From: a virus
Strand: one strand, 5' to 3'
DNA: 24,249 bases
IMG/VR virus record: IMGVR_UViG_3300029258_003655
Span: 1 to 24,249 of that record
Within the stretch, counting starts at the first letter, position 1; each line of letters opens with the position of its first letter. The notes beneath the pieces are model-generated. The model worked only from the letters and a program-made list of their open reading frames with translations, was not told where the DNA came from and made no database searches. Below, one piece after another: positions 1,946 to 22,313 of the stretch. The position numbers and the translations under genes are program-made.

Positions 1946-2092
1946 ATGGGGCGGGTCGTGAAGCGAAACGGGTCATCCGAGATAGCCGCCGCCCCTAATT
2001 TTGAGGATCGTGATTATGGAACTTACATTTCCGATCAAAGGCAAACATGTCGGGATGCCCTCAAGCCAGCAGCCTCCGGGCACTTCCCGTGA
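1946..2092 (+). CDS. Possible 48-aa small protein overlapping the start of the next gene
   Basis: An open frame from ATG 1946 to TGA 2092 encodes MGRVVKRNGSSEIAAAPNFE followed by DRDYGTYISDQ and a Pro/Ala-rich end. It would fill the gap between 1898 and 2016. A strong AAAGGAGGAG site lies at 1921-1930, but it is 15 nt from this ATG, and an in-frame TTG at 1931 is too close. It overlaps the N-terminal 25 codons of the 2016 gene in another frame. The composition looks protein-like, but the start spacing is poor. The ribosome site may be a relic, or the frame may not be translated. Confidence 0.35.
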   Translation: MGRVVKRNGSSEIAAAPNFEDRDYGTYISDQRQTCRDALKPAASGHFP

Positions 2093-2234
2093 TTTGAATA
2101 ATGTTCGTCCGTTCTATGACGGTCGGGCGTGCGGGGGCCAGAGGCCGGGGCTGGATAAATGGGGTGCTGGTACGTTGATTGGTGCAGCGGAGCAGCCGGT
2201 TGTTTGCATGTGTTCTGTGACGGTGGTGGTATAA
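2016..2234 (+). CDS. Tail nozzle / tubular B-like protein, N-terminal part only
   Basis: 72 residues from ATG 2016, behind GAGG at 2003-2006. The sequence MELTFPIKGKHVGMPSSQQP, followed by DLNNVRPFYDGRACGGQRPG and a 'DKWGAG' turn, resembles the extreme N-terminus of large phage tail proteins of the nozzle/tubular B kind (QPP..., NVRP..., GGQRPGL). Those proteins normally run on for hundreds of residues; this one stops at TAA 2232-2234 shortly after CMCSVTVVV. The next gene begins one base later. The likely remainder of the family protein begins at 4256. So it is either a naturally split gene whose pieces assemble, or a broken gene. The family match is from memory; the truncation is seen directly. 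Confidence 0.6.
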   Translation: MELTFPIKGKHVGMPSSQQPPGTSRDLNNVRPFYDGRACGGQRPGLDKWGAGTLIGAAEQPVVCMCSVTVVV

Positions 2235-2235
2235 C

Positions 2236-3138
2236 ATGGCTTTGTATGAAAATTCCACTTGGGAGTGGAACGGTCAAGTTAGCAATGTGTATTCTAATTG
2301 GTGGTATGCTCAATCTTTTACTCCATCTGTAACACATGATATTAGCAGTGTTATTTTGGCCCTTGGTAGACCTGTTGGAGATTCTCCGGGGACTGTAACT
2401 GTTTCAATACGTGCAATATCAGATGTTCCTCCACATGTGGGAGAAGCAATAATTCCTGATTTATGCTCTGGAACAACAGATGGTGATACTGTTGCTGAGT
2501 TAAGTGGTTTAGAAGACACTCCAACAGAAAGAGAGATAACTTTTGCAGAACCGGCAACACTGACGGCAGGAACACAATACGCCATTGTGGTAAGAGCGCC
2601 TTCTGGTTCTTCTTCCAATAAGTTATATTGGGTGGCAAATGCCAGCAGTGTATATGCAGGCGGCGTTCAAATGTTTAGTTCTACTTCCGGGGCTAATGGG
2701 GGGTGGACGCTATATGCAGATAAAGAACTGTGGTTCAAAGAGTACGGCGATCCCGGTGGTGCCAGCAAGCCAGTAAATCCGACGCCGTCTGATACAGACA
2801 CTGGGATTTCGATAAATCTTAGTGAGCTTAGTTGGGAGAGTGGTGGAGATACGGATGCTTATGATGTGTATTTCAATACCGGGAGTGGTCTTGTCCAAAT
2901 ATCAAGCAATCAAATTGAAACTTCTATTGATGTTTCTGATTTTTTGCCGTTGACTTATGGTGCTGAATATTCATGGCGTGTTGATGCCGTTAACAATGAT
3001 TATGGCACTGTGACCGGCGATGTGTGGACATTTACAGCGTTGGTCTTTGCTCCTCCAATTGCCGCCACTGGTATAAAAAAACGCGAAAAACGTTTGGTGG
3101 CTATGGCCGAAAACCGATTTTGGTATGAGGATATATAG
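2236..3138 (+). CDS. Adhesin-like tail protein: beta-sandwich + FnIII-like domain + short nozzle-like tail
   Basis: 300 residues from ATG 2236, one base after the previous stop, so translation is probably coupled. Residues about 1-172 form a beta-sandwich of the type seen in exported or phage carbohydrate-binding proteins (QSFTPS near the start, ALTAGTQYAIVV-like strand, ending WFKEYG). A related domain occurs in the protein at 9284. Residues about 173-268 look like a fibronectin type III domain (NPTPSDTDTGIS, LSWESGGD, YSWRVDAVN, WTFTA). The last 25 residues (KKREKRLVAMAENRFWYEDI) differ in character and match the end of the protein at 3546-4256. The role is probably host-surface binding on the tail. 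The codons look more AT-rich than the flanking genes, consistent with later acquisition. Confidence 0.6.
   Translation: MALYENSTWEWNGQVSNVYSNWWYAQSFTPSVTHDISSVILALGRPVGDSPGTVTVSIRAISDVPPHVGEAIIPDLCSGTTDGDTVAELSGLEDTPTEREITFAEPATLTAGTQYAIVVRAPSGSSSNKLYWVANASSVYAGGVQMFSSTSGANGGWTLYADKELWFKEYGDPGGASKPVNPTPSDTDTGISINLSELSWESGGDTDAYDVYFNTGSGLVQISSNQIETSIDVSDFLPLTYGAEYSWRVDAVNNDYGTVTGDVWTFTALVFAPPIAATGIKKREKRLVAMAENRFWYEDI
3114..3137 (+). repeat. Direct repeat, copy 1 (24 nt)
   Basis: CCGATTTT-GG-TATGAGGATATATA covers the last codons of the gene ending at 3138. It matches 4232-4255 at 22 of 24 positions; only the two middle bases differ. It marks the end of the first adhesin-like gene. Confidence 0.85.
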
Positions 3139-3147
3139 GGAGAAACA

Positions 3148-3543
3148 ATGGGTTCCTTTTCAGATTATCTTGAAGATGAAGTGTTGGATCACGTAACAGG
3201 TAAGGGTGCCTACACCAGCCCAACAGTATACGTGGCACTGTCTACTGCCGATCCAACTGACGATGCTTCTGGTATGGCAGAACCTTCTGGTGATGCGTAT
3301 GCGAGAGTAGAGACATCGGCAAGTGATTGGGATGCTTCGTCTGGCGGTGCTACAGCCAACGCTACTGCAATTACGTTTCCAGAGGCTACGGGAAATTGGG
3401 GGACTATTACGCATTTTGCTTTATATGATGCGTCTACTGGTGGAAACATGCTTATGCACGGCGCTTTAGATGCGTCACGTTCTATAACCAACGGAATTAC
3501 ACCAAGGTTTGCTATTGGCGAACTGGACATAACCCTGGATTGA
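3148..3543 (+). CDS. gp80-like virion structural protein (putative tail protein)
   Basis: 131 residues from ATG 3148 behind AGGGAG (3136-3141). Features are SDYLEDEVLDHVTG at the N-terminus, SPTVYVALSTADPTD, a YARVETS segment, ATAITFPEATGNWGTITHFA, and LYDASTGGNMLMHGAL. This order (short helix, 'vyvALyt..Pt', 'YaRv', 'fP.at.dWGtvthf.lyda..GG') is the signature I associate with a phage virion family related to mycobacteriophage gp80. It forms a small beta domain found near tail tips and fibres. It sits inside the three-gene cassette between the two nozzle-like pieces. No enzyme motif is present. Confidence 0.65.
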   Translation: MGSFSDYLEDEVLDHVTGKGAYTSPTVYVALSTADPTDDASGMAEPSGDAYARVETSASDWDASSGGATANATAITFPEATGNWGTITHFALYDASTGGNMLMHGALDASRSITNGITPRFAIGELDITLD

Positions 3544-3545
3544 TT

Positions 3546-4256
3546 ATGGCTGTTGTAGACGGTACTAATGCTGGATTTGTCACTGTAGCGCCCGTAGCCG
3601 ATCCTACTGGCAACTTCACACAAACCTGTGATAACGCTGGTTTTGCGGGTAAATTTACTACTCCAGCCGGAATATCAAAAATAACTGAAGTTGGCTGGTG
3701 GTGTAGCAACGCCACGCAAGCGGCCAATTTTAGGATAGCTCTATACAGTCACGATGCTGGTGGTGACGATCCTGACGCTCGTTTGTACGTTACGGATTAT
3801 ACAGCTAAAGGAACGGCTTCAGGGTGGAAAACGGTATCAGGACTTGATTGGGATGTCAACCCCGAAACTGTTTATTGGCTTGCGCTGTATGTGCAAAATA
3901 CAGCTACAGCAACACAACTTGATGTACAAACCGGATCGGGTCGTTACAGTTACAATGGAGGCGATTGTCCTGATCCTTGGCCCAATGTAGGTGAATATGC
4001 GTCTGTGTTGGCTATATACGGCGTTGTTGAATCAGGGACCACCTATTCGGAATTGTCGGGCACCATTGCTACAACGTCTACAACATCAGGTAACCTTGAA
4101 CTGTTGCAGTATTCTGCATTGTCCGGCACAATAGCAGCGGAATCAAATGTAGAAAGTGCGTCACTCGGCCAAACAAAAGTTAGTTTGCCAGAAAGCTGTA
4201 TTACAAAAAGAGTAATTGCAATAGGCAACAGCCGATTTTTTTATGAGGATATATAA
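3546..4256 (+). CDS. Adhesin-like tail protein: beta-sandwich + repeat segment + short nozzle-like tail
   Basis: 236 residues from ATG 3546. An in-frame TTG at 3540 overlaps the previous stop and is less likely. Residues about 1-160 are a Gly/Asp/Thr-rich beta-sandwich (GKFTTPAGISKITEVGWWCS, VYWLALYVQ, AIYGVVE). Its layout resembles the domains at 2236 and 9284. Residues about 165-208 hold two related units, YSELSGTIATTST and YSALSGTIAAESN. The last residues, TKRVIAIGNSRFFYEDI, match the end of the gene ending at 3138. The stop TAA overlaps the ATG of the next gene (TAATG, 4254-4258). It is probably a receptor-binding or fibre-accessory protein; the ligand is unknown. Confidence 0.55.
   Translation: MAVVDGTNAGFVTVAPVADPTGNFTQTCDNAGFAGKFTTPAGISKITEVGWWCSNATQAANFRIALYSHDAGGDDPDARLYVTDYTAKGTASGWKTVSGLDWDVNPETVYWLALYVQNTATATQLDVQTGSGRYSYNGGDCPDPWPNVGEYASVLAIYGVVESGTTYSELSGTIATTSTTSGNLELLQYSALSGTIAAESNVESASLGQTKVSLPESCITKRVIAIGNSRFFYEDI
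4232..4255 (+). repeat. Direct repeat, copy 2 (24 nt)
   Basis: CCGATTTT-TT-TATGAGGATATATA, 22 of 24 bases identical to 3114-3137. It ends the second adhesin-like gene and abuts the start of the large nozzle-like gene. The encoded residues (x-RF-[WF]-YEDI) are conserved in both copies. Confidence 0.85.
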
Positions 4257-5788
4257 TGGCTGCTGGAACAATGACGGAACTTGTCGCGGCTCGCGATGAC
4301 ATTGATACAACAAAGGCACTTTGGGCGTTTGAGCTTTATGGCAAAGTGTTTGTAGTTAATGGCACAAATCGTAAGGTTGCCGATTTTATCAATGTCAAAA
4401 TAACAACTACAGACATTGGTGCCAACCCGCCCGATTTTCAAACGGTGCTGACCGGAGGAACGTCGGGGGCGAAAATGATTGTGGATTATATTACGTCATT
4501 GGCTGGTGCGGCCACGATTTACGGGCGGCGGACTACAGTTGCTGATTTTGAGGCAGAGACGGTTACTGGCACCGACGATGATGGCAACGCCATATCATTT
4601 ACTGGAACTGCTGAAGTGGCTGGGCCGCATTGGTATGATTGGACATCGTATGGCGACAGCACTACTTTTGGTTCTGTTCCCGATCAATTGACTTTGGGTT
4701 GTGCGTGGAATGGGCGGGCGGTTGTTGCTGGGAATGAGGATGATCCAAATCAATGGTATATGTCCCGGCAGGGCAATCCTTGGGATTTTAATTATATTGC
4801 CAACGATCAACAAGCCCCAATATCAGGCGAAGATGCGGAACCTGGGAAAGCTGGTGATCCGCTTATAGCTGTTATTCCATATAGTAGAGATTATCTTGTT
4901 CTTGGTGGTGCTAATTCTATCTGGTATATGGCGGGCAATCCGGCAGCACACGGGTCATTGTTGGTTCTTAGTGACATTGGCGGTGTTCTTGATTCGCAGG
5001 CATGGTGTAAAGACAAGAGTGGTAATTTGTATATGCTCACGACGGTCGGCCTGCTCAGAATTCCAACTGGTTTTGGTCCACCGGAAAATTTGCTTGAAAC
5101 AATTTATCCTGATTTTCTTACCGATTTTGATTTTGATAATTCTTTACACAGAATAGTGATGGGGTTTGATAAATCCAGAAACGGAATTGAGATTGTAAAA
5201 ACAACTTTGGCGACAGGAGCAAATTCGTGTTGGTGGTTTGATTTGCGAACTGGTGGGTTGTTTCCCGAAAATTATCCTGAAGAATGCGGCACTTACTGTC
5301 TTTTTGATTATGCGGCCACTGATGCTACATATAGCGGGTTTTTGTATGGTTGTAAAGATGGTTATATTAGACTTCCTAAAGATTCGGCCAAAGATGATGA
5401 TGTCGGACCATCAGATGAGGCAATTGATAGTCATGTGACCTTTGGCCCGCTTAAATTAGGTAAGGAAAATCAAGAAGGTGTTGTCACTTCAATTGTGGGC
5501 ATAACCGCTGGTGGAGGATCGGATGGAACTATTACAGATTCTAATGCTCTGACATACTCAGTGTGGTCGGCTTTATCTGCTGATAATATTGTAGAAAAGT
5601 TAGCTGCAAACACAACGCCGAATGCTGCTGGCACAATAGCGGCCCCCGGTCGAAATCGGGGTGCCAGGAAGCGCAAACCGATACGCGGGCTTTATGCCGG
5701 GATCAGAATAGGAAACGATACAGCGGCTCAAACATGGGGATTGGAGAAGCTCGTTGTGGAAAGTCGCAGAAAAGGAAGGGTGAAATAA
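4256..5788 (+). CDS. Tail nozzle / tubular B-like protein, main part lacking the usual N-terminus
   Basis: 510 residues from ATG 4256 in a TAATG overlap with the preceding stop. It opens MAAGTMTELVAARDDIDTTK, which reads as the middle of a beta-propeller-like tail protein rather than a natural N-terminus. It continues with KVFVVNGTNRKVADF, DQLTLGCAWNGRAVVAGNED, DPNQWYMSRQGNPWDFNY, YLVLGGANSIWYMAGNP and GLLRIPTGFG. Repeated 'W.G..vv.g....n.wy.S..G.p..f' blades of this kind are typical of large phage tail nozzle/stabiliser proteins. The likely N-terminus is at 2016-2234 and the joint at the two direct repeats. Product and context support a tail conduit role. Whether the split pieces form a functional unit is unknown. 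Confidence 0.6.
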   Translation: MAAGTMTELVAARDDIDTTKALWAFELYGKVFVVNGTNRKVADFINVKITTTDIGANPPDFQTVLTGGTSGAKMIVDYITSLAGAATIYGRRTTVADFEAETVTGTDDDGNAISFTGTAEVAGPHWYDWTSYGDSTTFGSVPDQLTLGCAWNGRAVVAGNEDDPNQWYMSRQGNPWDFNYIANDQQAPISGEDAEPGKAGDPLIAVIPYSRDYLVLGGANSIWYMAGNPAAHGSLLVLSDIGGVLDSQAWCKDKSGNLYMLTTVGLLRIPTGFGPPENLLETIYPDFLTDFDFDNSLHRIVMGFDKSRNGIEIVKTTLATGANSCWWFDLRTGGLFPENYPEECGTYCLFDYAATDATYSGFLYGCKDGYIRLPKDSAKDDDVGPSDEAIDSHVTFGPLKLGKENQEGVVTSIVGITAGGGSDGTITDSNALTYSVWSALSADNIVEKLAANTTPNAAGTIAAPGRNRGARKRKPIRGLYAGIRIGNDTAAQTWGLEKLVVESRRKGRVK

Positions 5789-6232: not shown

Positions 6233-9200
6233 ATGAATCTCGGTTTTATAAATTCCGAAGACCCCCATGCTGTTCGACGGGCGTTCCAGACTATTCAAGG
6301 TGGGCTTGGTTACAGCAGTTCACCGATTTTTGCTGGACTGACTATAACTGGATTAACTGCTAACAGCTTAATGTATTCTGCCAGTGGGGGCGTTGTAACC
6401 TCACTTGGAGCGGCGACGAACGGCCAGATTCCGATAGGCTCGACCGGGGCTGTTCCAGTTCTGGCTACGATTACCGGCACTGCAAATGAGATTGATGTGA
6501 CCAATGGGGCCGGTTCTATTACAATCGGTCTGGTTAATCCGTTAATCGTGGGCAAAGGCGGCACAGGTGCAGCCACGTTGACAGATCATTCTTTGTTGGT
6601 TGGTTCTGGGACAGATGCCGTTACTGCTCTTGGGGCGGCTACAAATGGACAATTGCCAATAGGTTCTACAGGGGCCGATCCAACTTTAGCCACAATCACT
6701 GGCACTGCAAATGAGATCGAAATAACAAATGGCGCGGGTTCCATTACCATAGGTTTGGTCGATCCGCTTATTGTAGCAAAGGGGGGAACGGGCGCTGCCA
6801 CGCTCACCGATCACTCCTTGCTTGTTGGCTCGGAAACTGATGCTGTTACTGCGTTGGGCGCAGCCACAAACGGCCAGCTTCCTATTGGTTCTACTGGTGC
6901 CGATCCTGTTCTTGCTACACTCACTGGTACAGCTAATCAGGTTAATGTGACCAATGATGCCGGATCAATTACGCTCTCGACTCCGCAGAACATTCACGCT
7001 ACGGCTGATGTGGAGTTCCAATCGTTGTTGATAGACCAGGATACAGACGCCATTGGTCTGAATATTGATAGTGAGGCCACCACTGCCGCCAATTACGGGC
7101 TACAGTGTGTGACTGGCGGGGGGGCTATTGCGGCGTTGATTTCTTGTGGTGCTACAGCAAATGGCGCATTTTATGCGGGATGCCCCAACAATCAAAGTTA
7201 TGCTGGCAGTTTCGTGTTTGTAAGAGACTTGGCTGCTGCCAGCACAGATGGGTCTGTGGTTTATATCTATCAGGATAACGCCGGTGACGATCAACCCGCT
7301 CTTGAGATATTGCAGGATGGAACTGGTTATGCTCTGTTGGCAACTGGTAATGTTAGATTTGACGGTGACGCCACTATTACCGGGACTACTACATACGAGG
7401 GCAATATTGTAATTCCTGACGCTGGTTATATCGGCTCGGCTTCGGATACGGATGCAATCCAAATTGAGGCGGATGGCGATGTAGTTGTGTCGCAGATGCT
7501 TGCAGTGACGGGGGACATACAAGTAACAGGCAACATTTTGCTCATGGCCGATAGAGGTGGGTTGGGTTATAGTGACAATAACCCGATGATTGTGTTTGAC
7601 GACACCAACAATCGCGTGGAATTTGTCGGCAATATAATGCTGGCCGATGACGGCACTATTGGCGTAGCTGATGGCGAGCCGAGCATCTTATTCGACAATA
7701 CAGACGGTCAAGTTGAAGTAACTGGTATTCTTACTGTAAGCTCAAACATATCTGCTACTGGAACGATCACAGCTTCTAATTATACTGCCGCCAATCTTCT
7801 TACAGCCTGTGCCACAAATGCCGGGGCTTTGGATTTTAGTGCTGCCTCTAAGACTTTAACTGTTGAAGATGACGCTGTTGTCAGTCAGGATTATTCGTCT
7901 GATGCTTCTCCTACATTTGCCGGGCTTGATCTCACAAATATAACAGATGGCAACATTCCCTACATGTCAGCCAGTGGCTTTGCTGATAGCCCCATAAGTT
8001 ATAACGGAACTGCTATTGTATCTGGCGGCAATTCTTATTCTGCTGCGAACCCATCTATAATTTTAACTGGGACACTTTCAGGCGCTAATAGCGGGCACGG
8101 GTTCACAGATGAAAAGTCTTTGAGTCTGGATGATAACACAAAAGGATATGCGTCATTTGATGCTTATGCTGAAATAAGCGGGAGCGGTGATTTAGACCAT
8201 TATAATTCATTTCAAGCACGATCTGAATATAAATCAACTGGAACTATTGATTATTTTCGTGGGTTAAGGGTCGTTGATAAAGTTTACGATGGAACCGTTA
8301 CTAATTATATTCATGTAGACATTGCTCCTCGTTCCAAAGATGGTGGTACAATTACAAATGAATACGGATTAAAGATAGCGAGCATAGCACAGGGGGATAC
8401 GCTCAATTATGCTATATATACCGGCAATGGTTATGTTTATTTTGGGGACAACGTAGGAATAGGAACTGCGATTCAGAGTAACCGCTCGTTGTCTTTAGCT
8501 GGTGATATTGATGTTGGCGATTGTATATATATTGGTGGCACGCGATTTATGTTTAAGGAGGGCACTAATGGGTTCGCCCATAATGCTGGCAGCGATGGCA
8601 TAAGGTTCAAAAATGCTAATACAGAAAAAATGCGCATAAATGCTAACGGCGTTGGTGTAGGAGAAGGCGTCGATCCGGTTACTCAGGTAGAGGTGGTTGG
8701 AACTTCTCCCTACGTCACCCTTCATAATTCAACATCAGAAGACGGAGACGGGGGTAGAGAATCGCGCATTATTGCCAGAGGTCAACAGAATGGAGACGAA
8801 GAAACAGTTTTAGGTTATTTAGAATTTGCGCATGATGGCGCAGCAGATGACGAGAAGGGATTATTTAGAGTATTATTAAATGATGGGGATGATGGCACGG
8901 CCCCAAGTTTAACTGCTTTAACTTGTCATTCAACGGGCGAAGTAAAATTTCACCAAACTGTTTATTTTGCTTCAGAGGTAGATAACGGTGATTCCGGCGC
9001 AGCAGATACAATAGATTGGACCGCAGGAAACAAGCAAAAATCCACACTCACTGGCAATTGTACTTTTACTTTCTCGCCCGAACCTTCAGGTCCGAGTAAT
9101 CTCACACTGAAGCTGAAACAAGATGATACTGGAAGCAGGACAGTAACATGGCCGGGCGATGTCAAATGGGCGGGCGGTGCTGCTCCAACACTAAGTACCG

Positions 9201-9280
9201 GGGCCAATGACGTAGACATAATTAGTTTTTATTATGACGGCACAGATTTCTATGGACAAGCTGCTTTAGATTTTGGATAA
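6233..9280 (+). CDS. Tail fibre / receptor-binding protein with tandem repeats
   Basis: 1015 residues from ATG 6233. Residues 1-57 form a short attachment region. Residues 58-207 are two full 75-residue repeats and about 208-254 part of a third (LGAATNGQ-[IL]-PIGSTGA, TGTANE, TNGAGSIT, KGGTGAATLTDHSLLVGS). This is the Gly/Thr-rich shaft typical of phage fibres. Residues about 255-900 contain further beta-rich segments (FAGLDLTNITDGNIPYMS, VGIGT-type motif near 8455). The C-terminal ~100 residues (STLTGNCTFTF, TVTWPGDVKWAGGAAP, DIISFYYDGTDFYG) match a widespread fibre-end domain. No self-cleaving chaperone signature is seen. It probably contacts the host surface. Confidence 0.85.
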   Translation: MNLGFINSEDPHAVRRAFQTIQGGLGYSSSPIFAGLTITGLTANSLMYSASGGVVTSLGAATNGQIPIGSTGAVPVLATITGTANEIDVTNGAGSITIGLVNPLIVGKGGTGAATLTDHSLLVGSGTDAVTALGAATNGQLPIGSTGADPTLATITGTANEIEITNGAGSITIGLVDPLIVAKGGTGAATLTDHSLLVGSETDAVTALGAATNGQLPIGSTGADPVLATLTGTANQVNVTNDAGSITLSTPQNIHATADVEFQSLLIDQDTDAIGLNIDSEATTAANYGLQCVTGGGAIAALISCGATANGAFYAGCPNNQSYAGSFVFVRDLAAASTDGSVVYIYQDNAGDDQPALEILQDGTGYALLATGNVRFDGDATITGTTTYEGNIVIPDAGYIGSASDTDAIQIEADGDVVVSQMLAVTGDIQVTGNILLMADRGGLGYSDNNPMIVFDDTNNRVEFVGNIMLADDGTIGVADGEPSILFDNTDGQVEVTGILTVSSNISATGTITASNYTAANLLTACATNAGALDFSAASKTLTVEDDAVVSQDYSSDASPTFAGLDLTNITDGNIPYMSASGFADSPISYNGTAIVSGGNSYSAANPSIILTGTLSGANSGHGFTDEKSLSLDDNTKGYASFDAYAEISGSGDLDHYNSFQARSEYKSTGTIDYFRGLRVVDKVYDGTVTNYIHVDIAPRSKDGGTITNEYGLKIASIAQGDTLNYAIYTGNGYVYFGDNVGIGTAIQSNRSLSLAGDIDVGDCIYIGGTRFMFKEGTNGFAHNAGSDGIRFKNANTEKMRINANGVGVGEGVDPVTQVEVVGTSPYVTLHNSTSEDGDGGRESRIIARGQQNGDEETVLGYLEFAHDGAADDEKGLFRVLLNDGDDGTAPSLTALTCHSTGEVKFHQTVYFASEVDNGDSGAADTIDWTAGNKQKSTLTGNCTFTFSPEPSGPSNLTLKLKQDDTGSRTVTWPGDVKWAGGAAPTLSTGANDVDIISFYYDGTDFYGQAALDFG
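6404..6994 (+). repeat. Tandem 225-bp coding repeats in the tail fibre
   Basis: Units start at 6404, 6629 and 6854; the third is partial. The protein copies are nearly identical, but the DNA has diverged mostly at synonymous positions. Over the first 26 codons, units 1 and 2 differ at 16 synonymous and 3 non-synonymous codons. Confidence 0.9.
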
Positions 9281-9283
9281 TCT

Positions 9284-9841
9284 ATGTTTGCGAGAGATGA
9301 ATATTATACGGTCAATGATGACGAAGGGGCGGGGCTGATCTACGGTTCTGGTGAAGGAACTGGTGTTTGGATGGGGCAGGTGTTCACTCCAGTACACACT
9401 ATGTCTCTCCGGCGCGTTGAAGCGAAATTATATCGTCTCGGCACTGTGGGAGATATTACGCTGTCCGTGTATGCTACAACGGGCAGTCCGGCGCTCCCAA
9501 CAGGGGCCTCTTTGTCAGATATTGTGGTTGACGGGGACACGATCACCACAGATTCTGCGGGAGAATGGGTTCCTTTTACTCTGGGTTCTGCTCTTTCTCT
9601 TACTGGCGGGACGGCTTATGCTTTGATATTAAAGGTGCCTGATGGTTATAACAATGGGGGTTCTGCTGGGATGTACTGGCGTCGGGATGGTACGTCTTCT
9701 GTCTACGCTAATGGGCATCATGTCCAGCTATATAGTGCTGTGGGGTCATGGCAATACAGCAGTACGACAGATTTGATGTTTGAAACGTGGGGAACAAGTA
9801 ACATAATCGGATCGTCAATTAACTTGGGGTCATTGTTCTAA
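9284..9841 (+). CDS. Adhesin-like beta-sandwich tail protein
   Basis: 185 residues from ATG 9284, four bases after the fibre stop, with only a weak ribosome site, so coupling to the fibre gene is likely. The whole chain is one domain: GQVFTPVHTMSLRRVEAKLY, DITLSVYATTGSPALP, LTGGTAYALILKVPDG, GMYWRRDGTSSVYANG, and a final DLMFETWG strand. It aligns by eye with the N-terminal domain of the protein at 2236 (QSFTPS, TVSIRAI, LTAGTQYAIVV, YWVANASSVYAGG, ELWFKEYG). Such domains are typical of secreted or surface beta-sandwich modules. It is probably a fibre accessory or second receptor binder. Confidence 0.6.
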   Translation: MFARDEYYTVNDDEGAGLIYGSGEGTGVWMGQVFTPVHTMSLRRVEAKLYRLGTVGDITLSVYATTGSPALPTGASLSDIVVDGDTITTDSAGEWVPFTLGSALSLTGGTAYALILKVPDGYNNGGSAGMYWRRDGTSSVYANGHHVQLYSAVGSWQYSSTTDLMFETWGTSNIIGSSINLGSLF

Positions 9842-9874: not shown

Positions 9875-11050
9875 ATGGGTTTAACAAATCCTTATGGGCG
9901 AGAATTTCCAAACACTGTGCCGGGTCAAGAGACAGGCGTGGTGGATAGTCGAACATTCAATTTCAATGATCCCGCTAATATGACCCATCCGACTGGCGGC
10001 GGTGGTAGCGTAACCTATAAACCCAACTGGGGCCAACCGATTATTGACGGTCAGTGGCGAGGGGCACAGGCTGCGCAAGACCCGGAGATTCAGCGTTTGG
10101 CTACGACTGATCCGCGTGAGATCGTGCAGCAACAACAAAAACAAGCATTGTCGCAGTTGGAAGCTGATGTTGCCGCCAAGACCCAGGAGGCTACGCGCGA
10201 TGCGCAACATAAATTGCGGCAGCTTGCCCAAGAGCGCGATGTGAAATTCCGCCATTTGCAGAACAAACATCTCGGTCCCGGAGCGGATAAAGCAAAGACG
10301 CCGGAGGAACGAATGAAGTTGTTTCACGATGCTGTCGCTGATCTGGATGAGAAGATGGAGCTTGCCAAATTGCGGATCGACGGGAGTGTTCAGCCCGATC
10401 TGGATGAGATTGGTGCGCAGAAGCAACAGATAGCTGCGCAGATTCAGAGGGATTTTGAAAACGGGCAATTACAATTAAATCTATATGATAAGCTGGCAGA
10501 GGATGGTTTTCTTGATCCTACTATTGCCAAGTATCTAAAATTGAAAACTGCTGGGGTTGACATTCCATTATCTGATGTGCGGGTGTCTACAGAGGCCGGT
10601 CGGCGGAACCAACTTTATAGACAGCTTCAACAATCGCGATCAATATCTAATGAAATTGCTCAACAGATTGAGGAACTTGGTACGGAATATAGTTTCGACA
10701 ATCTTGATGAAACTGATGCAGAACGAAAGCTCCGCGTGAAACGGCAACAAGAGTTGGTTGTTGATCGCAGTAGAGTAGAAGAGACCATTAAACAAATACT
10801 TTCAGAACTTAATCCGAAACGAGATTTTGGAAAAGTCGGGCAATTAAACAAAGCACACGCTTCCGTTCTTCCCGCAACTGGAGAGCCGGTCGGGACTGTG
10901 GGGACTGCGGTAAAGGGGGAGTTGGAAAAGCAGTCGGGGTCGAAAACAACTGGTGGCAGGGTGTCTGTTATTAGTCCCGACGGGGTAAAAGGCACTGTGC
11001 CAGCGGAAGAATTGCAGCAGCATTTAGCTCAAGGGTTTAGGAGAATATAA
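9875..11050 (+). CDS. Coiled-coil virion protein, probable internal/ejected or tail protein
   Basis: 391 residues from ATG 9875 (GGGAG at 9865-9869). Residues 1-65 are Gly/Pro/Asn-rich. Residues about 75-330 are highly helical with Gln/Glu/Lys/Ala heptads (QQKQALSQLEADVAAKTQEA, HKLRQLAQERDVKFRHLQNK, IEELGTEY, AERKLRVKRQQE). The C-terminus (RVSVISPDGVKGTVPAEELQ) contains a 'SPDGxxGTVPxxxL' motif that I associate with phage internal virion proteins. It overlaps the next gene by TAATG at 11048-11052. By position before the 1300-aa protein it resembles the smaller partners of podovirus ejection proteins. The function is inferred. Confidence 0.55.
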   Translation: MGLTNPYGREFPNTVPGQETGVVDSRTFNFNDPANMTHPTGGGGSVTYKPNWGQPIIDGQWRGAQAAQDPEIQRLATTDPREIVQQQQKQALSQLEADVAAKTQEATRDAQHKLRQLAQERDVKFRHLQNKHLGPGADKAKTPEERMKLFHDAVADLDEKMELAKLRIDGSVQPDLDEIGAQKQQIAAQIQRDFENGQLQLNLYDKLAEDGFLDPTIAKYLKLKTAGVDIPLSDVRVSTEAGRRNQLYRQLQQSRSISNEIAQQIEELGTEYSFDNLDETDAERKLRVKRQQELVVDRSRVEETIKQILSELNPKRDFGKVGQLNKAHASVLPATGEPVGTVGTAVKGELEKQSGSKTTGGRVSVISPDGVKGTVPAEELQQHLAQGFRRI

Positions 11051-14000
11051 TGCCTTTTGTCCCCGATGAACAACAAAACACCGGGTTCATTCCCGATAAA
11101 CCCAGCGATCCGTTTGCCCGCGCAGGAGATATGCCTGCCGGTATGACAATGGGGAGTGGCGTATCGGGTATGCAGTTGCCGGAACATGTTGGGCTTGAAC
11201 CAACGCGCCAGAAGGCCGCGAGCGGTTTTGTTCCCGATGACACAATTGGGTTTTGGGGGGCGATGAAGGAGAAACCACATCAGTATATTCCAGGTGTGGG
11301 GGCCGTAGCTGATGTTGTGATCTCTACGAAAGATAGAGAAGCTTTTGCGCGGTTAGAAAAGGGCCATGACTACGCCAAGCCCATTGCTTATTCCGGTTTA
11401 GCAAGTGGCTTTGGTATGATGAACAAGAGTCCCGTTTATACTACGCGGGAAAAAGATGTTGAACGGCTGGTCAATTGGATAAATGAGGCTAATAAAAAAT
11501 ACTCATTTGGTGGTCGCATCGGGCGGATAGCAAAGCAGTTGCCGCCATTTATGGTTGAGTTTCTGGCGACCAGCGGTCTGTTTTCTGCTGGCGAGACTGT
11601 GACAAAGAAAATGGCTGTAAAAGCTCTTGGTAAATATGCAAAATCTAAGGCGGGTAGAGCCGCCACTACAATGGCAGGTCTTGGTGCCGGGGCAGTAACA
11701 CAGGCCACGTTTGGTTTGCCACACCGTACTGTCCAAACGTTTGCCGAACGTAGGTTGCCCGAAGGATTAACTGTTGACGGTGAAACAGGGAATGTCGAAT
11801 TTGAGTGGCCGGAGGAAAATCCCGCCACTTCATTTGTAAAGGCGTGGGGTGATACGGTGATTGAAGTCGCTTCGGAGCGGGCTGGTGAATTTTTGCCGAT
11901 TAGTGGACTCGCGGGTAAAGGGGCGACAAAAGTGGCCAAAGTTGGAGAGGGGCAATTAGCCAAATCTGCATTTGGGGCTAAACTAATCGACAAGTTTTAT
12001 GCTGGTTATAAGAAACTGCACCCCGTTATGGAGAAGACTGAATTTGCCAAGCAGTTTATGAACAAAGCCGGACGGCAGGGGATACTGGAAGAACTCGGTG
12101 AGGAATATATCGGGGACTCATTACGGGCGATCACCGGCACCGATGATTTTGGGGCCGGAAAAGGCGCGGGGATGAAGGAGCGGCTGGTTGCGGCCCTGAA
12201 GCAGGATTGGGAGAACACCCCCGAAATGGCAACGGCATTTGCGATCCCTGCCGCTGGCGCGCATGTAGCCGGGGGGATTCTGTCCGCGCCCCCATCGGTA
12301 GAAAAAATAGAAGCTATCGCTGAGCAGATCAAGAATAGCGAATCTCTGAGTGATGTGGAGAAGGTGCGGGAGTTGGAAAAGTTGCAAGAGATTGTGACCG
12401 GGGAAAAAGCTGGAGTGAAAAAAGCGGGGGAGGTGGGTGATACATACTATCATGGCACAAGCGCGGATGCGGCAGATCAGATTACTGAGGGCGGTTTTAG
12501 GCTCAGTAAGCGCGCACATGACATTTCGATTTCTAAAGACAGATCGGTTGCCGAATTTCATGCTAAGAGGCGGGGGCCAAGAAATAAAGTATTAGAAGTT
12601 TCTATAAACCCTGACGCAAAAATCTTCACAACTAAAGATGTGCCTGCAAAATTCAAAAAACGATCCGTTAGCACAGTTGAGTTAGACACTTATGCAAGAC
12701 AGAATGGCTATGACGGCATAGATGTGGCGCAACTGAGCGCCGATGGTGTCACTAAGGGTGTGGTGGGCGAAGAGAAAGAAGTGACTATTTTCAACACAAG
12801 TGTGCTGTCTCCAACAAAATCACAACAAGACCTCTCAGCTTTCGACATCCCCGAATCCACCCGCAAGACTGTGAAGGTAGTCCGCCGCCTATCTGAAACT
12901 TTGGCCGATCTGGAATCCCAGCGGCCTGAACTCGCAAAGGGCATCAAGAAGCGTCGGGCCAGCGTGTATCAGGAACAGAAGAAAATCCGGGAGGCGCACG
13001 CTGATCCGGTCGAGGCCAACAAACGGGCGCAGGCTTTCGCCAAACAACAACTGCGAGCCACGATCCCGAATCTGACGGAACAGTTCAGTCAGGATGATAT
13101 TGCATCGTTACATCGAGCCATAAAAGAAACGAAATTATTGAACGAGGCCGAGAAGACCAATTTGGTGGACACATTTAACGATCTGTTTGTAAAGAATGTT
13201 CAACCATCCAGAAGTCAGATTAAATTGTTCGATAAATTTTTCGGGACCAAGATTCTCGATTCTGTTAATTGGAAAAATCTGACGAAGTATCAGAAGACTG
13301 TCCACGCGATCAATGAAACACTCGGCATTAGCAAGGCTTTGCTGGCATCGTGTGATATGTCTTTTGGTGGCGTTCAAGCATGGCCCGCTTTTTTCAAAGA
13401 CCCGGTAAATTGGTTCAAAGGTGTCGGACATGGTTGGCGGGCTATGTTCAGTGAGGACTATGCCAGGATACGCGACATTGAAATAAAGACCAGTCCGTAT
13501 TATGGACAGGCGGTTTCTACTGGAATAGATCACACAGAAGTTGGGAGTAAATTACGTGGTGAGGAAGCGTTCATTAGTCAGCTTGCTCACAAGATTCCGC
13601 TCATCGGTATAGCCGTTCGCGCCTCCGACAGAGGGTTTGTAACGGCGGGCAACAGTATTCGATTTGGCTTGGCTTATAAGACCTACGAAGCATGGGACGG
13701 TTTGGTCCTTCCCCACGAACAATATTTGGAGATGTCCGATCATATCAACAACCTCACAGGTCGGGGAAAGGGCGAGGAAGGCGGCAAGCTTGAAAGATAT
13801 ATGCCAGAGCTTAGTGCAGCATTCTGGACTCCCCGGTTGTGGATTGCGACGGGCAAGACAGTGACAGATATGGCAACTAAAAAGCATATTCGCCAGATCG
13901 CCGCACATGATCTGATTCAATCGCTTGCGTTGATGGGGGTTATTACTGGGCTGGCATCTCTGATCCCGGATGTTGAAGTTGAGACTGATCTCCGATCTTC

Positions 14001-14952
14001 CGATTTCTTGAAAGTTCGGGTTGGACAGATGCGGTTTAATCCTTTTGGTCGATACCAACAAGTTATGCGAACAGCCGCACAAGTCATAATGGGCGAATGT
14101 AAAGCCACAGGAAGCGGGCGGATCAGCGATGTGGATCGAAACAAAATTGTGACCAAATTCCTGCGGAGCAAACTCAACCCAGTTGTAGGAATGCCCGCTG
14201 ATCTATTCTACTTCAAAGAGACTTACATGGGTGAGAAGGTCCGCTGGGAATCGGACTTTATGACCAAATACATCGCCGACCATGTGACCCCGTTGTTCAT
14301 CCAGGATTTGCGGGACGCGGCCAAATATCAGGGCATGGGCACTTCCACCTACATAATGGCACCGCTGGCCGTTCACGGGATCGGTGCGCAGACTTATAAG
14401 ACAACCCCGACACAGGAAGCTATGGAACTTAAAAATCATCTGGCCCACGAATACTTCGGGGCTGAGTGGGATGCTCTGGGGCCGGAAGCACAAGAGGCTT
14501 TGCGGGAACAACGGCCAGCGATAGAACAATTTGAGCGGCAGGCTGATTATGAGCGGGAAGATTATAGCTTTCTTGGCAATCTGGCCGATCAAGAAAATGA
14601 AGCTGGGCGACGAGTGGAGAAAAAGCTAAACCGTCGTGTGCAAGATGAGTTAAGGAAACACATGGTTAAAGTGGGGCAGTTAAGCAGACGGATTGGAAAA
14701 AGCTGGTACCTGAACCACGACCGATACAAAGCATATCAAAAAGATTTGGTCAAGGCTCTAAATCATGCGATGCCCAAAGTCGTAAATTCGCCTGGTTGGG
14801 CTGGCATGGGGTCAGAAGCGCAACGAACCTATCTTGAGACTACGTTAAATGACGCTAAGAAATATGTTCGGCAGCAAATCATCGACAAGGCAAACGCTGA
14901 GGATTTTGCACGCCGGGAGGAAGTGAAAGATGAGCGAACAACAGCTAAGTGA
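11050..14952 (+). CDS. Large multidomain virion protein, probably ejected, with an ADP-ribosyltransferase-like segment
   Basis: 1300 residues from ATG 11050 (TAATG overlap). The N-terminus repeats the motif F[VI]PD three times (residues 3, 14, about 60). Residues ~145-450 are Ala/Gly-rich with helical and hydrophobic segments. Residues ~464-590 hold TYYHGTS (H468), ISISKDRSVAEFHA (491-505), then NGYDGIDV and KEVTIFNTSVLS (E577). This order of 'HGT', 'S.D...A' and 'E' before a strand resembles ADP-ribosyltransferase domains of phage polyvalent proteins. Residues ~759-1130 resemble another large polyvalent-protein domain (ASCDMSFGG, RASDRGFVTAGN, LNPVVGMPADLFY). The C-terminus is charged and helical. 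Length and context suggest an internal protein delivered with the DNA. ART activity is not established. Confidence 0.65.
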   Translation: MPFVPDEQQNTGFIPDKPSDPFARAGDMPAGMTMGSGVSGMQLPEHVGLEPTRQKAASGFVPDDTIGFWGAMKEKPHQYIPGVGAVADVVISTKDREAFARLEKGHDYAKPIAYSGLASGFGMMNKSPVYTTREKDVERLVNWINEANKKYSFGGRIGRIAKQLPPFMVEFLATSGLFSAGETVTKKMAVKALGKYAKSKAGRAATTMAGLGAGAVTQATFGLPHRTVQTFAERRLPEGLTVDGETGNVEFEWPEENPATSFVKAWGDTVIEVASERAGEFLPISGLAGKGATKVAKVGEGQLAKSAFGAKLIDKFYAGYKKLHPVMEKTEFAKQFMNKAGRQGILEELGEEYIGDSLRAITGTDDFGAGKGAGMKERLVAALKQDWENTPEMATAFAIPAAGAHVAGGILSAPPSVEKIEAIAEQIKNSESLSDVEKVRELEKLQEIVTGEKAGVKKAGEVGDTYYHGTSADAADQITEGGFRLSKRAHDISISKDRSVAEFHAKRRGPRNKVLEVSINPDAKIFTTKDVPAKFKKRSVSTVELDTYARQNGYDGIDVAQLSADGVTKGVVGEEKEVTIFNTSVLSPTKSQQDLSAFDIPESTRKTVKVVRRLSETLADLESQRPELAKGIKKRRASVYQEQKKIREAHADPVEANKRAQAFAKQQLRATIPNLTEQFSQDDIASLHRAIKETKLLNEAEKTNLVDTFNDLFVKNVQPSRSQIKLFDKFFGTKILDSVNWKNLTKYQKTVHAINETLGISKALLASCDMSFGGVQAWPAFFKDPVNWFKGVGHGWRAMFSEDYARIRDIEIKTSPYYGQAVSTGIDHTEVGSKLRGEEAFISQLAHKIPLIGIAVRASDRGFVTAGNSIRFGLAYKTYEAWDGLVLPHEQYLEMSDHINNLTGRGKGEEGGKLERYMPELSAAFWTPRLWIATGKTVTDMATKKHIRQIAAHDLIQSLALMGVITGLASLIPDVEVETDLRSSDFLKVRVGQMRFNPFGRYQQVMRTAAQVIMGECKATGSGRISDVDRNKIVTKFLRSKLNPVVGMPADLFYFKETYMGEKVRWESDFMTKYIADHVTPLFIQDLRDAAKYQGMGTSTYIMAPLAVHGIGAQTYKTTPTQEAMELKNHLAHEYFGAEWDALGPEAQEALREQRPAIEQFERQADYEREDYSFLGNLADQENEAGRRVEKKLNRRVQDELRKHMVKVGQLSRRIGKSWYLNHDRYKAYQKDLVKALNHAMPKVVNSPGWAGMGSEAQRTYLETTLNDAKKYVRQQIIDKANAEDFARREEVKDERTTAK

Positions 14953-15109: not shown

Positions 15110-15410
15110 GCTTTGCCCGCAATTTAAGCGTTTTTTGGAACTTGTGTTCGGCCCAAAGACCTACTGCCTTCTTCTGATTGTAGCGATTTCGTGCCCCGGC
15201 TTTGTCAGGCTTGCTGGGGTGCTTGACTTCCTGTGGTCCGCAGATATAGCCATCATCGTCGCACAGCATTATACAACGGCCTTTGTTAAATATATCAGCG
15301 GCCACAATAGATTTTAGCTCATGAATTTGTCCCGACGAGCTTTCAAATTTAACGAGCATGTCGGGCGGGCAGAGTCGCAATATGGCGATGAGTTCATTGA
15401 CTGTCATCAT
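15054..15410 (-). CDS. 118-aa hypothetical phage protein
   Basis: ATG 15410 overlaps the methyltransferase stop (ATGA) and has GGAGG four bases upstream; the next codon is also ATG (15407). The N-terminus MTVNELIAILRLCPPDMLVK has the 'TV.eLI..L...PPD..V' form common in small phage proteins of unknown function. The middle contains CIMLCDDDGYICG. The C-terminus is basic, then Pro-rich (PPSPTPEPAPP). It is the last gene of the minus-strand block and its 3' end overlaps the membrane protein gene head-on. The function is unknown. Confidence 0.6.
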   Translation of the reverse strand: MMTVNELIAILRLCPPDMLVKFESSSGQIHELKSIVAADIFNKGRCIMLCDDDGYICGPQEVKHPSKPDKAGARNRYNQKKAVGLWAEHKFQKTLKLRAKLIPPSPTPEPAPPANPTS

Positions 15411-16357
15411 CTAACCTCCAGCTTCGCTCCGGTTTCTCCGGCGACCTCAGCCAACCGCCGATTCGTCAGTTCAATTTGTGATTCTCGAACATCAATTCCA
15501 ATATATTTCCGGCCCAACTTCTTCGCAACTGCACAAGTTGTGCCCGATCCTGAAAAGGGATCAAGTACAATTCCATCAGGCGGACAAAAGGATTTGACGA
15601 AGAACTCGGCCAGCTTTTCTGGGAACGGGGCTTCGTTTTGGTGAGCGAGATTTGATCCCATGTGGCCTTTTCCAACAGCCCCGCAATTTACAGTTAATCC
15701 TGCATCAAAAAATTCCAAGTAGTCGCCGGGATTACAGAGTTTTGGAGGCTTGTAATCTTTTGGCACTTTGTTTGGATCAAGATAAAAATGAGACGGCTTT
15801 TTATAATTTTTAGTTTGCCCGTCTTTTAATCGTTCAGTTTGTTTTCCTGTTCCGCCCCATTGATTCACTCTGCTACCATCTTTTTTTCGGTTGCTACATG
15901 GCCCCCCCGGCCCATATTTCGGGACATGTCCACAAGCAGTGTTGTCACTCCAAGGCAATTTGCCGCCATTAGTAGCACAAATGACATATTCGTGATTACA
16001 TTTAAGCCACTCTTTGCCGCCACTACCGGGCACACCGTATCGTTGAAAAATAACTGGGCGTCGTAAATTGATCCCTGCTCTGTGCAAATCAGCCATAAGC
16101 AATGCGGGAACAGCGCTCCATTGACGGTTACGGGTTCGTCCCTGCACTACAAAAGCCACCAACCCTTTGCACCGCAACAAAGACGTTCGATAAACTTCGA
16201 CCATCCAATCCACCCAATCTTGTCCTTTAAGCTTGAAGTCAATGCCATAAGTGCGGGCATCTTCATAAGGCGGCGACCCAAAGATTAAATCAACAGATTT
16301 CGGTGGCAATTTTTTGATTTCCTCTAAACAATCACCCTGAATTATTCTGCTTTCCAT
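15407..16357 (-). CDS. DNA methyltransferase, N6-adenine/N4-cytosine family (beta-type motif order)
   Basis: 316 residues from ATG 16357, behind GGGGGAG. Motif IV, DLIFGSPPYED (SPPY at residues 28-31), comes first. Motif I, DPFSGSGTT (FSGSGTT at 268-274), follows near the C-terminus, then KYIGIDV. This order is that of beta-class amino-methyltransferases (N6_N4_Mtase family), which use S-adenosylmethionine to modify adenine N6 or cytosine N4. SPPY is common in N4-cytosine enzymes but does not settle the base. The long middle (about residues 60-240) should hold target recognition. No restriction enzyme gene is near, so it is an orphan enzyme, probably protecting phage DNA or marking it. Confidence 0.9.
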   Translation of the reverse strand: MESRIIQGDCLEEIKKLPPKSVDLIFGSPPYEDARTYGIDFKLKGQDWVDWMVEVYRTSLLRCKGLVAFVVQGRTRNRQWSAVPALLMADLHRAGINLRRPVIFQRYGVPGSGGKEWLKCNHEYVICATNGGKLPWSDNTACGHVPKYGPGGPCSNRKKDGSRVNQWGGTGKQTERLKDGQTKNYKKPSHFYLDPNKVPKDYKPPKLCNPGDYLEFFDAGLTVNCGAVGKGHMGSNLAHQNEAPFPEKLAEFFVKSFCPPDGIVLDPFSGSGTTCAVAKKLGRKYIGIDVRESQIELTNRRLAEVAGETGAKLEVR

Positions 16358-16631
16358 CTTCTCCCCCGTTATATTTTTCCATCACCTGCCCCGCCTCTTT
16401 TGGAATCTCCACCGTTTCGGACCAGTGAAATGTTATGCTGCCCGACTTCTTACAGTGCTGTTGATCTTTGAAAACCGATATGGCATTTCGCACCCGCTCA
16501 ACCGGCACTACAGCATAGAGACCTTTGTTGTGCCAGAGAATCGGTTGGGGCTTTTCGATCAGTTCAATGAGTTTCGGGCCGCTGATTTGTAGAATGCTGC
16601 TGTTTTGTTTAATTGTCATCGGGTGGATCAT
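16332..16631 (-). CDS. 99-aa hypothetical protein
   Basis: ATG 16631 is chosen because GGAGGAG (plus-strand 16639-16645) lies 7 nt upstream. A TTG at 16637 and an ATG at 16619 are alternatives. The sequence MIHPMTIKQNSSILQISGPK, LIELIEKPQPILWHNKGLYA, VVPVERVRNA suggests a small alpha/beta protein. The C-terminus is charged. It overlaps the upstream gene by 23 bases and the methyltransferase start by 26. No known family is recognised. Confidence 0.55.
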   Translation of the reverse strand: MIHPMTIKQNSSILQISGPKLIELIEKPQPILWHNKGLYAVVPVERVRNAISVFKDQQHCKKSGSITFHWSETVEIPKEAGQVMEKYNGGEDGKQNNSG

Positions 16632-16815
16632 AACCAAGCTCCTCCAGAATCATATCCTCGATCTCTTGTCGTGTGTGGCGCTTTTCAATACGAGAATAGA
16701 GTTGCTTCAATGCAGCCCACCAACCATCTTCTAATCCGTTTTGATACTCAATTTCCGCCCTTGATGTTGGCGGTCCGGGACCGTGTGACTGTAACCATTT
16801 TTCAAACGCTTTCAT
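16609..16815 (-). CDS. 68-aa hypothetical protein
   Basis: ATG 16815 is preferred over an upstream in-frame start at 16869, because AGGGGGA lies 8 nt before it and the longer version would run into the membrane protein gene. The chain is MKAFEKWLQSHGPGPPTSRA, EIEYQNGLEDGWWAALKQLY, then a helical charged end (RQEIEDMILEELG). Short helical proteins with 'GW.aAL..ly' are common among phage genes near primases and methyltransferases, but no function is known to me. Confidence 0.6.
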   Translation of the reverse strand: MKAFEKWLQSHGPGPPTSRAEIEYQNGLEDGWWAALKQLYSRIEKRHTRQEIEDMILEELGYDPPDDN

Positions 16816-16828
16816 TTTGAATGTCCCC

Positions 16829-17002
16829 CTAAAGTTTCTTTTCAAGCAATTTTCCTTGAAGAAACACAAACACGCACAACGTTACTATAATTGGCCAAAG
16901 ACATATCAGCACTAACCACCACACGATTTTTGTTGGTTCTCTCCACACACAAAAACGAAACCAGAGCATTACTATTGACCCAATTAAAAAATACACAATC
17001 AT
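16829..17002 (-). CDS. 57-aa two-helix membrane protein
   Basis: Start ATG 17002, stop TAG at 16829-16831. The ATG overlaps the upstream TGA (ATGA, 16999-17002), and GAGAGG lies 8 nt upstream. Two hydrophobic stretches, residues 1-20 (MIVYFLIGSIVMLWFRFCVW) and about 27-48 (VWWLVLICLWPIIVTLCVFV), are joined by a short basic-polar loop (REPTK) and end in LLEKKL. It is very rich in Trp, Val, Leu and Cys. Two-helix hairpins of this size can act as holins or superinfection-exclusion proteins; nothing here decides. It fills the gap between 16815 and 16999. Confidence 0.65.
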   Translation of the reverse strand: MIVYFLIGSIVMLWFRFCVWREPTKIVWWLVLICLWPIIVTLCVFVFLQGKLLEKKL

Positions 17003-17220
17003 TTTGAATGCCTCTCAATAAACTCATCCACCGCCTGCTTTGTAGTCCACTTGTATCTCCGATCCTGATCATTTGGTCTCATCAACGGAATCTCCCCGAC
17101 TTCTGCCCATCGGCGGACGGAATATGATGTCACTTGCTGGCCGGTTTGGGTGAAGATGTAATGGCGGACATCAGTTAGTTTGATTAGATCGGGAACCATC
17201 ATCCCCCCTTGTTCCGACAT
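16999..17220 (-). CDS. Helix-turn-helix DNA-binding protein (MerR/excisionase-like)
   Basis: 73 residues from ATG 17220; ATGs at 17202 and 17199 are alternatives, because AAGGGGGG sits directly before them. The pattern LTDVRHYIFTQTGQQVTSYS, VRRWAEVGEIPLMRP, DRRYKWTTKQAVDEFIERH matches small winged or MerR-type HTH proteins: a helix, 'S..VrrWa..G.ip', then a basic 'R.y.wtt.qaV.eFi'. It probably binds DNA as a phage regulator or excisionase-like protein. No integrase is in the window, so lysogeny is not implied. It overlaps the upstream gene by 22 bases. Confidence 0.75.
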   Translation of the reverse strand: MSEQGGMMVPDLIKLTDVRHYIFTQTGQQVTSYSVRRWAEVGEIPLMRPNDQDRRYKWTTKQAVDEFIERHSK

Positions 17221-17735
17221 CCGATCCGAAATGTGTTGAGCATGGTATTATTATCAACGGTATAAGATGCGGCCCAATCTCGCCACGTACTCTTGGCATC
17301 TGCTTCAGTCTTCCCCTTGAATCGGGGATCATAGTCAGGATCAAAATGCTGGACGATCATAGTGGATAGTTCTGCCATTTTACGATGTCCTGCTAATTGT
17401 TCGACCCACATCCGCTGCGCCTCCTCAAATCTTTCTTTGGGCGACAGTTTTTGGTAGTGCAGCTCATCAATACGGAATAAAAGGCAGGGTTTTTTGTTGA
17501 CGGTGATACAAAAACCTTCAAACCCCTTTGCCGAAAAACGATAGTCCAGCGCACAAGCGGGCATACACAAGATAGCATCGCGCAATGATCGTACAAATGT
17601 ACGAAAATCTCTGGTGGTGTTTATCTTATCCCAATCTGGTTCCAGCGCTGGGGTCTTTTGTTCTACTGCACCTGCTCTCGCGATCCCACAAATCGGCAAG
17701 CCAAGTCCGACTTTCAACAACTCTCTACGTTTCAT
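17199..17735 (-). CDS. Exported protein with a Tat-type signal peptide, function unknown
   Basis: 178 residues from ATG 17735, preferred because AGGGG lies 6 nt upstream; ATG 17741 and an upstream ATT/TTG-type extension to 17795 are less likely. The N-terminus MKRRELLKVGLGLPICGIAR fits a twin-arginine signal: R3-R4-x-L-L-K, a moderately hydrophobic Gly-rich core, then A-G-A at 21-23 as a possible cleavage site. The mature part has cysteines (CMPAC, GFCITVNKKPC), a helical charged region (SPKERFEEAQRMWVEQLAGH) and an Asp/Trp-rich end. I recognise no enzyme family. It starts 11 bases inside the upstream gene. Folded export suggests a role at or outside the host membrane. Confidence 0.6.
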   Translation of the reverse strand: MKRRELLKVGLGLPICGIARAGAVEQKTPALEPDWDKINTTRDFRTFVRSLRDAILCMPACALDYRFSAKGFEGFCITVNKKPCLLFRIDELHYQKLSPKERFEEAQRMWVEQLAGHRKMAELSTMIVQHFDPDYDPRFKGKTEADAKSTWRDWAASYTVDNNTMLNTFRIGCRNKGG

Positions 17736-18426: not shown

Positions 18427-18547
18427 TTTTTCCCTCTCGTCTTCTGTAATCTTCGAGTTCGGTTTCTAAATTTTCAATAGTGTTTTTCAGGTCCGCAACC
18501 TCATTTTCCAATTCGTCAATTATGTTTTCCAAATCTGCTTCGCTCAT
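18419..18547 (-). CDS. 42-aa coiled-coil protein
   Basis: ATG 18547 overlaps the primase-helicase stop (TGATG) with GGGAGG 5 nt upstream; the stop TGA is at 18419-18421. The whole chain is a heptad-patterned acidic helix (MSEADLENIIDELENEVADL, then NTIENLETELEDYRRR). It probably dimerises. The function is unknown; it could tether or regulate a neighbouring product. The strong ribosome site and both tight overlaps support translation despite its size. Confidence 0.7.
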   Translation of the reverse strand: MSEADLENIIDELENEVADLKNTIENLETELEDYRRREGKND

Positions 18548-20805: not shown

Positions 20806-20840
20806 CTCCCCTCCTTGTCCCCCGGTCAACTTTCTCTCCC

Positions 20841-20912: not shown

Positions 20913-20915
20913 GTT

Positions 20916-22311: not shown

Positions 22312-22313
22312 TT

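Follow-up and report, generated by a model that had tools for sequence, protein, structure and literature searches.

A tail nozzle that is encoded in separate pieces, conserved and functional, and that bears exchangeable modules where it is divided, is well supported by our analysis of a phage contig and its relatives. The stretch of DNA analysed (the window) is the entire viral contig of IMG/VR record IMGVR_UViG_3300029258_003655, 24,249 bases in length. Judged by predicted fold, the N piece and the C piece encoded in it together make up the tail nozzle of a podophage, with the fold of tail tubular protein B and P22 gp10. We consider it probable that this nozzle is built from several chains, with swappable adhesins at the cut and blade 1 of its propeller completed in trans, the assembly and the receptor binding being the parts of this proposal that we infer.

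The nozzle locus of the window

Each of the five open reading frames claimed by the initial annotation was found, all of them on the plus strand and ending in TAA, TAG, TGA, TAA and TAA, respectively. The nozzle N piece (2016..2234; 72 aa, stop TAA) was recognized by an HMM, and the same domain is N-terminal in unbroken frames of distant relatives. It is followed by module chain A (2236..3138; 300 aa, stop TAG), which consists of a DUF4082-like sandwich, an FnIII domain and then a tail, tail 1 (KRLVAMAENRFWYEDI; 3088..3135), with a position-matrix score of 43.5 and the TAG immediately after it. In the Pfam scan, fn3 was above the cut-off (E 5e-6) and the sandwich was sub-threshold; the latter is 37% identical to the module fused in L087, the nearest relative. 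The third frame encodes a Gp80-like protein without a tail (podophage GP4 fiber I; 3148..3543; 131 aa, stop TGA), which matched Pfam PF23140 (E 2e-45; 154.6 bits with a cut-off of 27; positions 2-128 of the 128 in the model) as well as PDB 8jou_a (E 4.5e-12), and is a clear member of the family of GP4 fiber I gp80 (PF23140, PDB 8jou). Module chain B (3546..4256; 236 aa, stop TAA) comprises a module for which Pfam returned no family and tail 2 (KRVIAIGNSRFFYEDI; 4206..4253; score 35.6), whose codons GAGGAT double as the Shine-Dalgarno position for the next ATG. The last base of the TAA of this gene overlaps the ATG of the 510-aa gene at 4256, the nozzle C piece (4256..5788; stop TAA), which by predicted structure supplies the remaining beta-propeller and the C-terminal part. 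The beta-sandwich, FnIII-like and gp80-like modules that had been called between the end pieces were thus upheld by Pfam.

Sequence searches with the two end pieces were negative: the Pfam and PHROG scans gave no usable family, the PDB profile searches with N or C alignments gave nothing relevant, and no relative emerged when family members, the N-piece consensus and the unbroken form were compared with INPHARED by tblastn, which returned weak partial hits only (E 0.2-8). The fold predicted for the 510-aa protein of the window from 9 sequences was weak (pLDDT 66), with the nozzle of the Pseudomonas phage Pa223 as its best PDB match (Z 12.4). It was replaced by a 60-sequence fold of L087, in which the module is fused to C (65% identity to the C piece of the window). 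In the L087 model (pLDDT 88), residues 175-702, that is, the tail and the C piece, overlay the solved nozzles of Pa223 from residue 67 (Z 20.6, 402 aligned, rmsd 3.7), SU10 from residue 75 (Z 19.4), VP1 from residue 66 (Z 18.9) and P22 gp10 from residue 67 (Z 18.5), and also those of cyanophage Pan3 from residue 63 and crAss001 from residue 77. Because the overlay begins at these residues, the C chain would lack the first ~65-75 residues of a nozzle, which is the size of the N piece. The nozzle-like identity first proposed from the sequence is therefore upheld by the predicted fold and its Z score to the Pa223 nozzle. The L087 tail is modeled as two strands (180-184 and 187-191) at the start of the overlaid part, and the L087 module (1-165) resembles a baseplate chain of phage phi812 (Z 19.3). 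LUZ24 gp56 is the Pa223 nozzle at the sequence level; by eye, its PILDMFPFIRN and NIPYWLLCSEQRLYLADG match the end of the N piece and the tail, a lead that was not significant by profile methods, since hhalign of the N, C and joined N+tail+C profiles against the LUZ24/Pa223 nozzle group gave no significant result.

Upstream of the N piece, a gene truncated by the contig start (1..927, plus strand) encodes a protein with 39% identity (E 8e-70) to the product of an L003 gene that sits two genes upstream of the L003 N piece. By its position it is a probable head-tail adaptor gene; PHROG gave no match for relatives of its protein. As in other podophages, the nozzle gene of the split-nozzle relatives lies shortly downstream of the probable adaptor gene. 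Podophage nozzles are hexameric and sit at the end of the tail, beneath a dodecameric adaptor; for the split nozzle, the observation that bears on this arrangement is the gene order. Positions 1044-1898 encode a 284-aa protein with the motif xWxDCP...FDDF, which by eye is also present close to the adaptor-like genes of L007, L009 and L278. Downstream of the locus lie a probable fiber of 1015 aa with repeats of KGGTGAATLTDHSLLVGSGTDAVTALGAATNGQLPIGSTGADP (6233-9280) and a 185-aa homologue of the first module of chain A, without a tail (9284-9841; 32% identity, E 1e-13), so that, to judge from this similarity, the sandwich module is used at a second site of the genome. A 1300-aa protein (11050-14952) had only weak PHROG matches (RNA 2'-phosphotransferase, E 0.03) and is perhaps, by the place of its gene, an ejected protein. 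The minus strand at 15407-23159 carries genes for a DNA methyltransferase (15407-16357), a primase-helicase (18547-20829) and a Sak4-like protein (22314-23159).

Conservation of the split and unbroken homologues

Relatives of the 510-aa protein were gathered from IMG/VR and from Planctomycetota genomes, and a separate, independent search was made with the consensus of the N piece, chosen because the variability of the N-piece alignment precluded scanning with a pattern; the searches relied on conserved patterns, which highly divergent forms would escape. The N-piece HMM matched 183 of the 197 loci analysed, and both pieces were present in 176. In none of these 176 loci did N and C share one stop-to-stop frame. 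The stop of the N piece lay 1-12 residues past the end of its domain in every one of them (1 residue in 139), and the C core started 554-4908 nt after the N piece, never directly. Removal of repeats left 108 distinct junctions with a nearly constant split site, and the same N stop was present in all 44 of the new loci found by the N piece alone. Median dN/dS values were 0.24 for N and 0.22 for C (80 pairs, Nei-Gojobori; rough values, as synonymous sites are partly saturated), and both pieces are under purifying selection. The split is accordingly not an event in this phage, as the initial annotation had it, since all 176 two-piece loci have the same N/C division; it is old and shared across the family, which consists of uncultured short-tailed phages, some of them located within Planctomycetota genomes.

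Unbroken homologues were found in distant relatives. In L278, a 6.96-Mb Planctomycetota contig, the N domain (residues 4-59; i-E 1.3e-15 in a one-sequence search) and the C domain (residues 1076-1428; 5.8e-50) belong to a single chain of 1431 aa, in which they are separated by ~860 residues of different sequence together with a weak tail-like stretch. L293 (a 1345-residue frame) and L291 (a 772-residue frame) likewise hold N and C in one frame, with N-domain E values of 2e-7 and 7e-5, respectively; the order in L291 is N piece, a module of ~200-250 residues, the tail-like HRRLAAVAGNRVYASG and C piece. L292 was left unclassified owing to an undetermined base in the gap. Because these unbroken forms carry the N part and then the C part in one chain, the 72-aa and 510-aa proteins of the window are the halves of one protein, as had been suggested. 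The occurrence of separate genes in many phages with no fused form, which had been counted against that suggestion, holds within the close family and not beyond it: the N-terminal ~65-85 residues are discontinuous with the propeller in 176/176 loci and continuous only in the distant L278, L291 and L293. The simplest course, given that the nozzles known so far are single chains, is a later split of an unbroken ancestor, a direction that the comparison suggests. No viral contigs near the unbroken L278 form were found. Within the chromosome-size L278 contig, head-like, adaptor-like and nozzle genes are present, and the locus is probably a prophage of a distant relative. Relatives are also present in 7 further genomes from the class to which the L087 genome belongs, which points to Planctomycetota as the phage hosts.

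C-terminal tails and exchange of modules

Most of the module chains end in a conserved C-terminal hairpin of ~16 aa, the tail (KRLVAxGNNxxWYEDI), which the initial annotation had not described. In the window, the 300-aa and 236-aa proteins have nothing significant in common save their last 16 residues (9/16 identical). With a position matrix (PSSM) built from known tails, the maximum among 1042 reversed control ORFs was 14.3, compared with the scores of 43.5 and 35.6 given above. At least one tail was present in 106 of the 108 distinct loci, and only a few residues lie between the last tail and the C core, the two being joined in one chain or parted by a stop and a new start; nearly all earlier tails are followed by a stop. 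Three layouts were observed: one tail fused to C (39 loci), a separate tail-bearing module followed by a C-fused tail (46 loci), and all module chains separate, as in the window (20 loci). Over 1.27 Mb on both strands, 176 tails lay between N and C and a single one lay outside. This lone outside tail stands at the end of a separate FnIII/Ig-like chain of 284 aa, encoded just upstream of the L074 N piece, a location that fits a tag acting in trans.

The extra tail on separate chains (tail 1) and the tail adjoining C (tail 2) can be told apart at position 7, which is Gly in 80 of 105 tails 2 and in 1 of 70 tails 1 (p 6e-26, uncorrected for kinship). The Trp of the KWG motif of the N piece was present in 62/62 loci with tail 1 versus 8/38 without it (p 2e-18, uncorrected); after correction for the tree, mostly 5-6 to 0 pairs (median p 0.06), the association is suggestive. 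Where tail 2 is fused to C and tail 1 is also present, tail 1 is without an obvious free slot in a standard propeller.

The cassette between N and C varies in size: some loci have a single module there, others several genes. In about one third of the loci it is fused to the C chain. Modules swap among close relatives while the tail stays: the C pieces of L096 and L048 are 86.5% identical and their modules are alike only in the last 25 aa, and the modules of L063/L096 and of L006/L009 have only their last 46 and 40 residues in common, respectively. On the tree of C pieces, at least 26 changes between the fused and separate layouts were counted, with the N split constant among these loci. Domains recognized in the modules include lectin-type Laminin_G_3 (E 1e-18 and 7e-17), FnIII and Ig-like domains, several of them below cut-off. 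Gp80 was found in 19 loci, within the flanks covered only inside the nozzle gap, whereas in Venkman, C72C1 and phiM5 the gp80 gene comes after that of tail tube A or of a virion protein. Based on the domain types and the exchange, the inserted modules are probable host-binding adhesins. In L290 (6842-7714, reverse complement coordinates), a laminin-G-like module seemingly lies inside the N piece, with the last strand GSPVVACGQVSSVGV after the module and a stop right behind the strand. Short frames with Cys motifs like those of HNH-type homing endonucleases were seen by eye in or close to the nozzle region, namely in the L055 nozzle gap (~3.1 kb), in L003 (3566-3991) and in L278, and such frames could help to move modules.

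Separate chains, their proposed assembly and its significance

We propose that the nozzle consists of separate, co-translated chains and that the cut in its gene falls in the loop which follows the first strand of blade 1 of the propeller. The N piece would supply the N-terminal part and the first strand of blade 1 (PVVCMCSVTVV), the probable adhesin modules would fill the cut, the beta-hairpin tail would form the next two strands of blade 1, and the C piece would give the rest. In the window, three chains would make up blade 1: the 72-aa chain, the 510-aa chain and, through its tail, the 236-aa chain. Completion of the blade by this tail would anchor a swappable adhesin in the nozzle wall. 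Completion of blade 1 in trans by the tails is the most likely mechanism, based on the modeled fold, the unbroken forms and the location of the tails. Tail 1 of the 300-aa chain, helped by the N piece, probably serves to dock another adhesin, at a position that we place by inference. A tentative extension, to which we give somewhat less than even chances, is a nozzle acting as a modular socket with two hairpin slots, in which tail 2 and C would complete blade 1, tail 1 would pair with the KWG N piece, and adhesins with matching tails would dock from separate genes, even from outside the gap as in L074.

A single polypeptide, made from the pieces by programmed frameshifting, stop readthrough or ribosome bypass, would agree with the unbroken forms in distant relatives and with the very tight junctions, but we regard it as very unlikely in view of the junctions themselves. 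At 61 distinct junctions, the gene after the N stop was in all three frames (25, 24 and 10; 2 unassigned), the N stops were TAA (39), TGA (14) and TAG (8), and the gaps were mostly +1 or -1 nt. Because the next gene occurs in any of three frames, frameshifting and stop reassignment do not explain the layout, in line with the earlier remark that no single stop reassignment joins the pieces. The junctions have ATG starts; a Shine-Dalgarno-like motif preceded 18% of the starts after the N stop versus 57% of N starts, and in the split loci 18 of 20 C starts had such a motif (GAGG in 17), located at the tail's own Glu-Asp codons. These features fit coupled translation of separate chains. A programmed frameshift or readthrough gene was also considered as a known type and set aside, there being neither a conserved relative frame nor a conserved recoded stop at the junction. 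Decay of a structural gene, with a working nozzle elsewhere, is suggested by the view of a single genome, which resembles a gene fragmented by stops; it has next to no probability given the same split at 108 distinct junctions, intact ORFs, dN/dS of about 0.2, conserved tails and translational coupling. Between the two options initially offered, a gene opened yet still working as separate chains is thus strongly favored, also by the complementing tails and the unbroken homologues, and the decaying gene is rejected.

The motif upstream of the C starts, together with the retention of the tail in module swaps, could also mean that the tails are non-structural and serve mainly as translation signals (the GAGG of the Glu-Asp codons) or as recombination landing sites for modules. 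We find this improbable, as the hairpin is kept as protein where no start follows: nearly every fused chain has one tail, with Glu-Asp/Glu-Ser still common. Moreover, the tail falls on two strands at the start of the nozzle-overlaid part of the L087 model, a tail-like stretch is present in the unbroken L291, and tails 1 and 2 differ consistently. A split nozzle whose inserted modules are structural decorations or chaperones instead of receptor-binding proteins is rather unlikely; many modules are without a Pfam family and no receptor is known, but the Laminin_G_3, FnIII and Ig-like domains, the Gp80 fiber and the frequent swapping among close relatives argue for binding proteins.

Compared with known systems, the split nozzle has in common with Pa223/LUZ24 gp56, VP1 gp16 and P22 gp10, by predicted structure, the propeller-plus-platform fold; T7 gp12 is a further nozzle (tail tubular protein B) and, as a member of this family, presumably shares the fold. 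Known podophage nozzles, by which the DNA leaves the particle, are one chain, whereas here the first ~72 residues are a separate gene, the modules are placed in the first-blade loop and there is no sequence family match. In pilins, donor-strand complementation has a short strand of one chain complete and anchor the fold of another chain; there a single strand completes an Ig fold, in contrast to a hairpin and a propeller here, and we claim no sequence relation. In the nozzle gp17 of SU10 (Kuravirus), blade 1 is extended by a fiber-dock loop, and Ig-like domains lie between blades 2 and 3 (PMC9509320). This nozzle is like the split nozzle in having extra domains inserted in the propeller, and SU10 fibers are docked on the nozzle (PMC9509320); however, SU10 gp17 is one chain with fibers held by a loop, while the split nozzle has its insertion where blade 1 begins, and its chains can carry a putative blade-completing hairpin as their last element. 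For a Vibrio phage, tail tubular proteins are reported to bind the receptor (PMC7241545). In a search of mostly openly accessible literature, no report was found of a nozzle propeller made from separately encoded pieces.

Inserted domains and docked fibers on nozzles are already known. If the proposal is true, the split nozzle would be a naturally occurring system for plugging receptor-binding modules onto the DNA conduit and would suggest how gene fission becomes fixed in an essential virion protein; if the two-slot socket is also true, one phage would show several receptor binders, exchanged as plug-ins. Under the main proposal, the tail would be a sequence tag with which to find unknown adhesins of the phages linked here to Planctomycetota.
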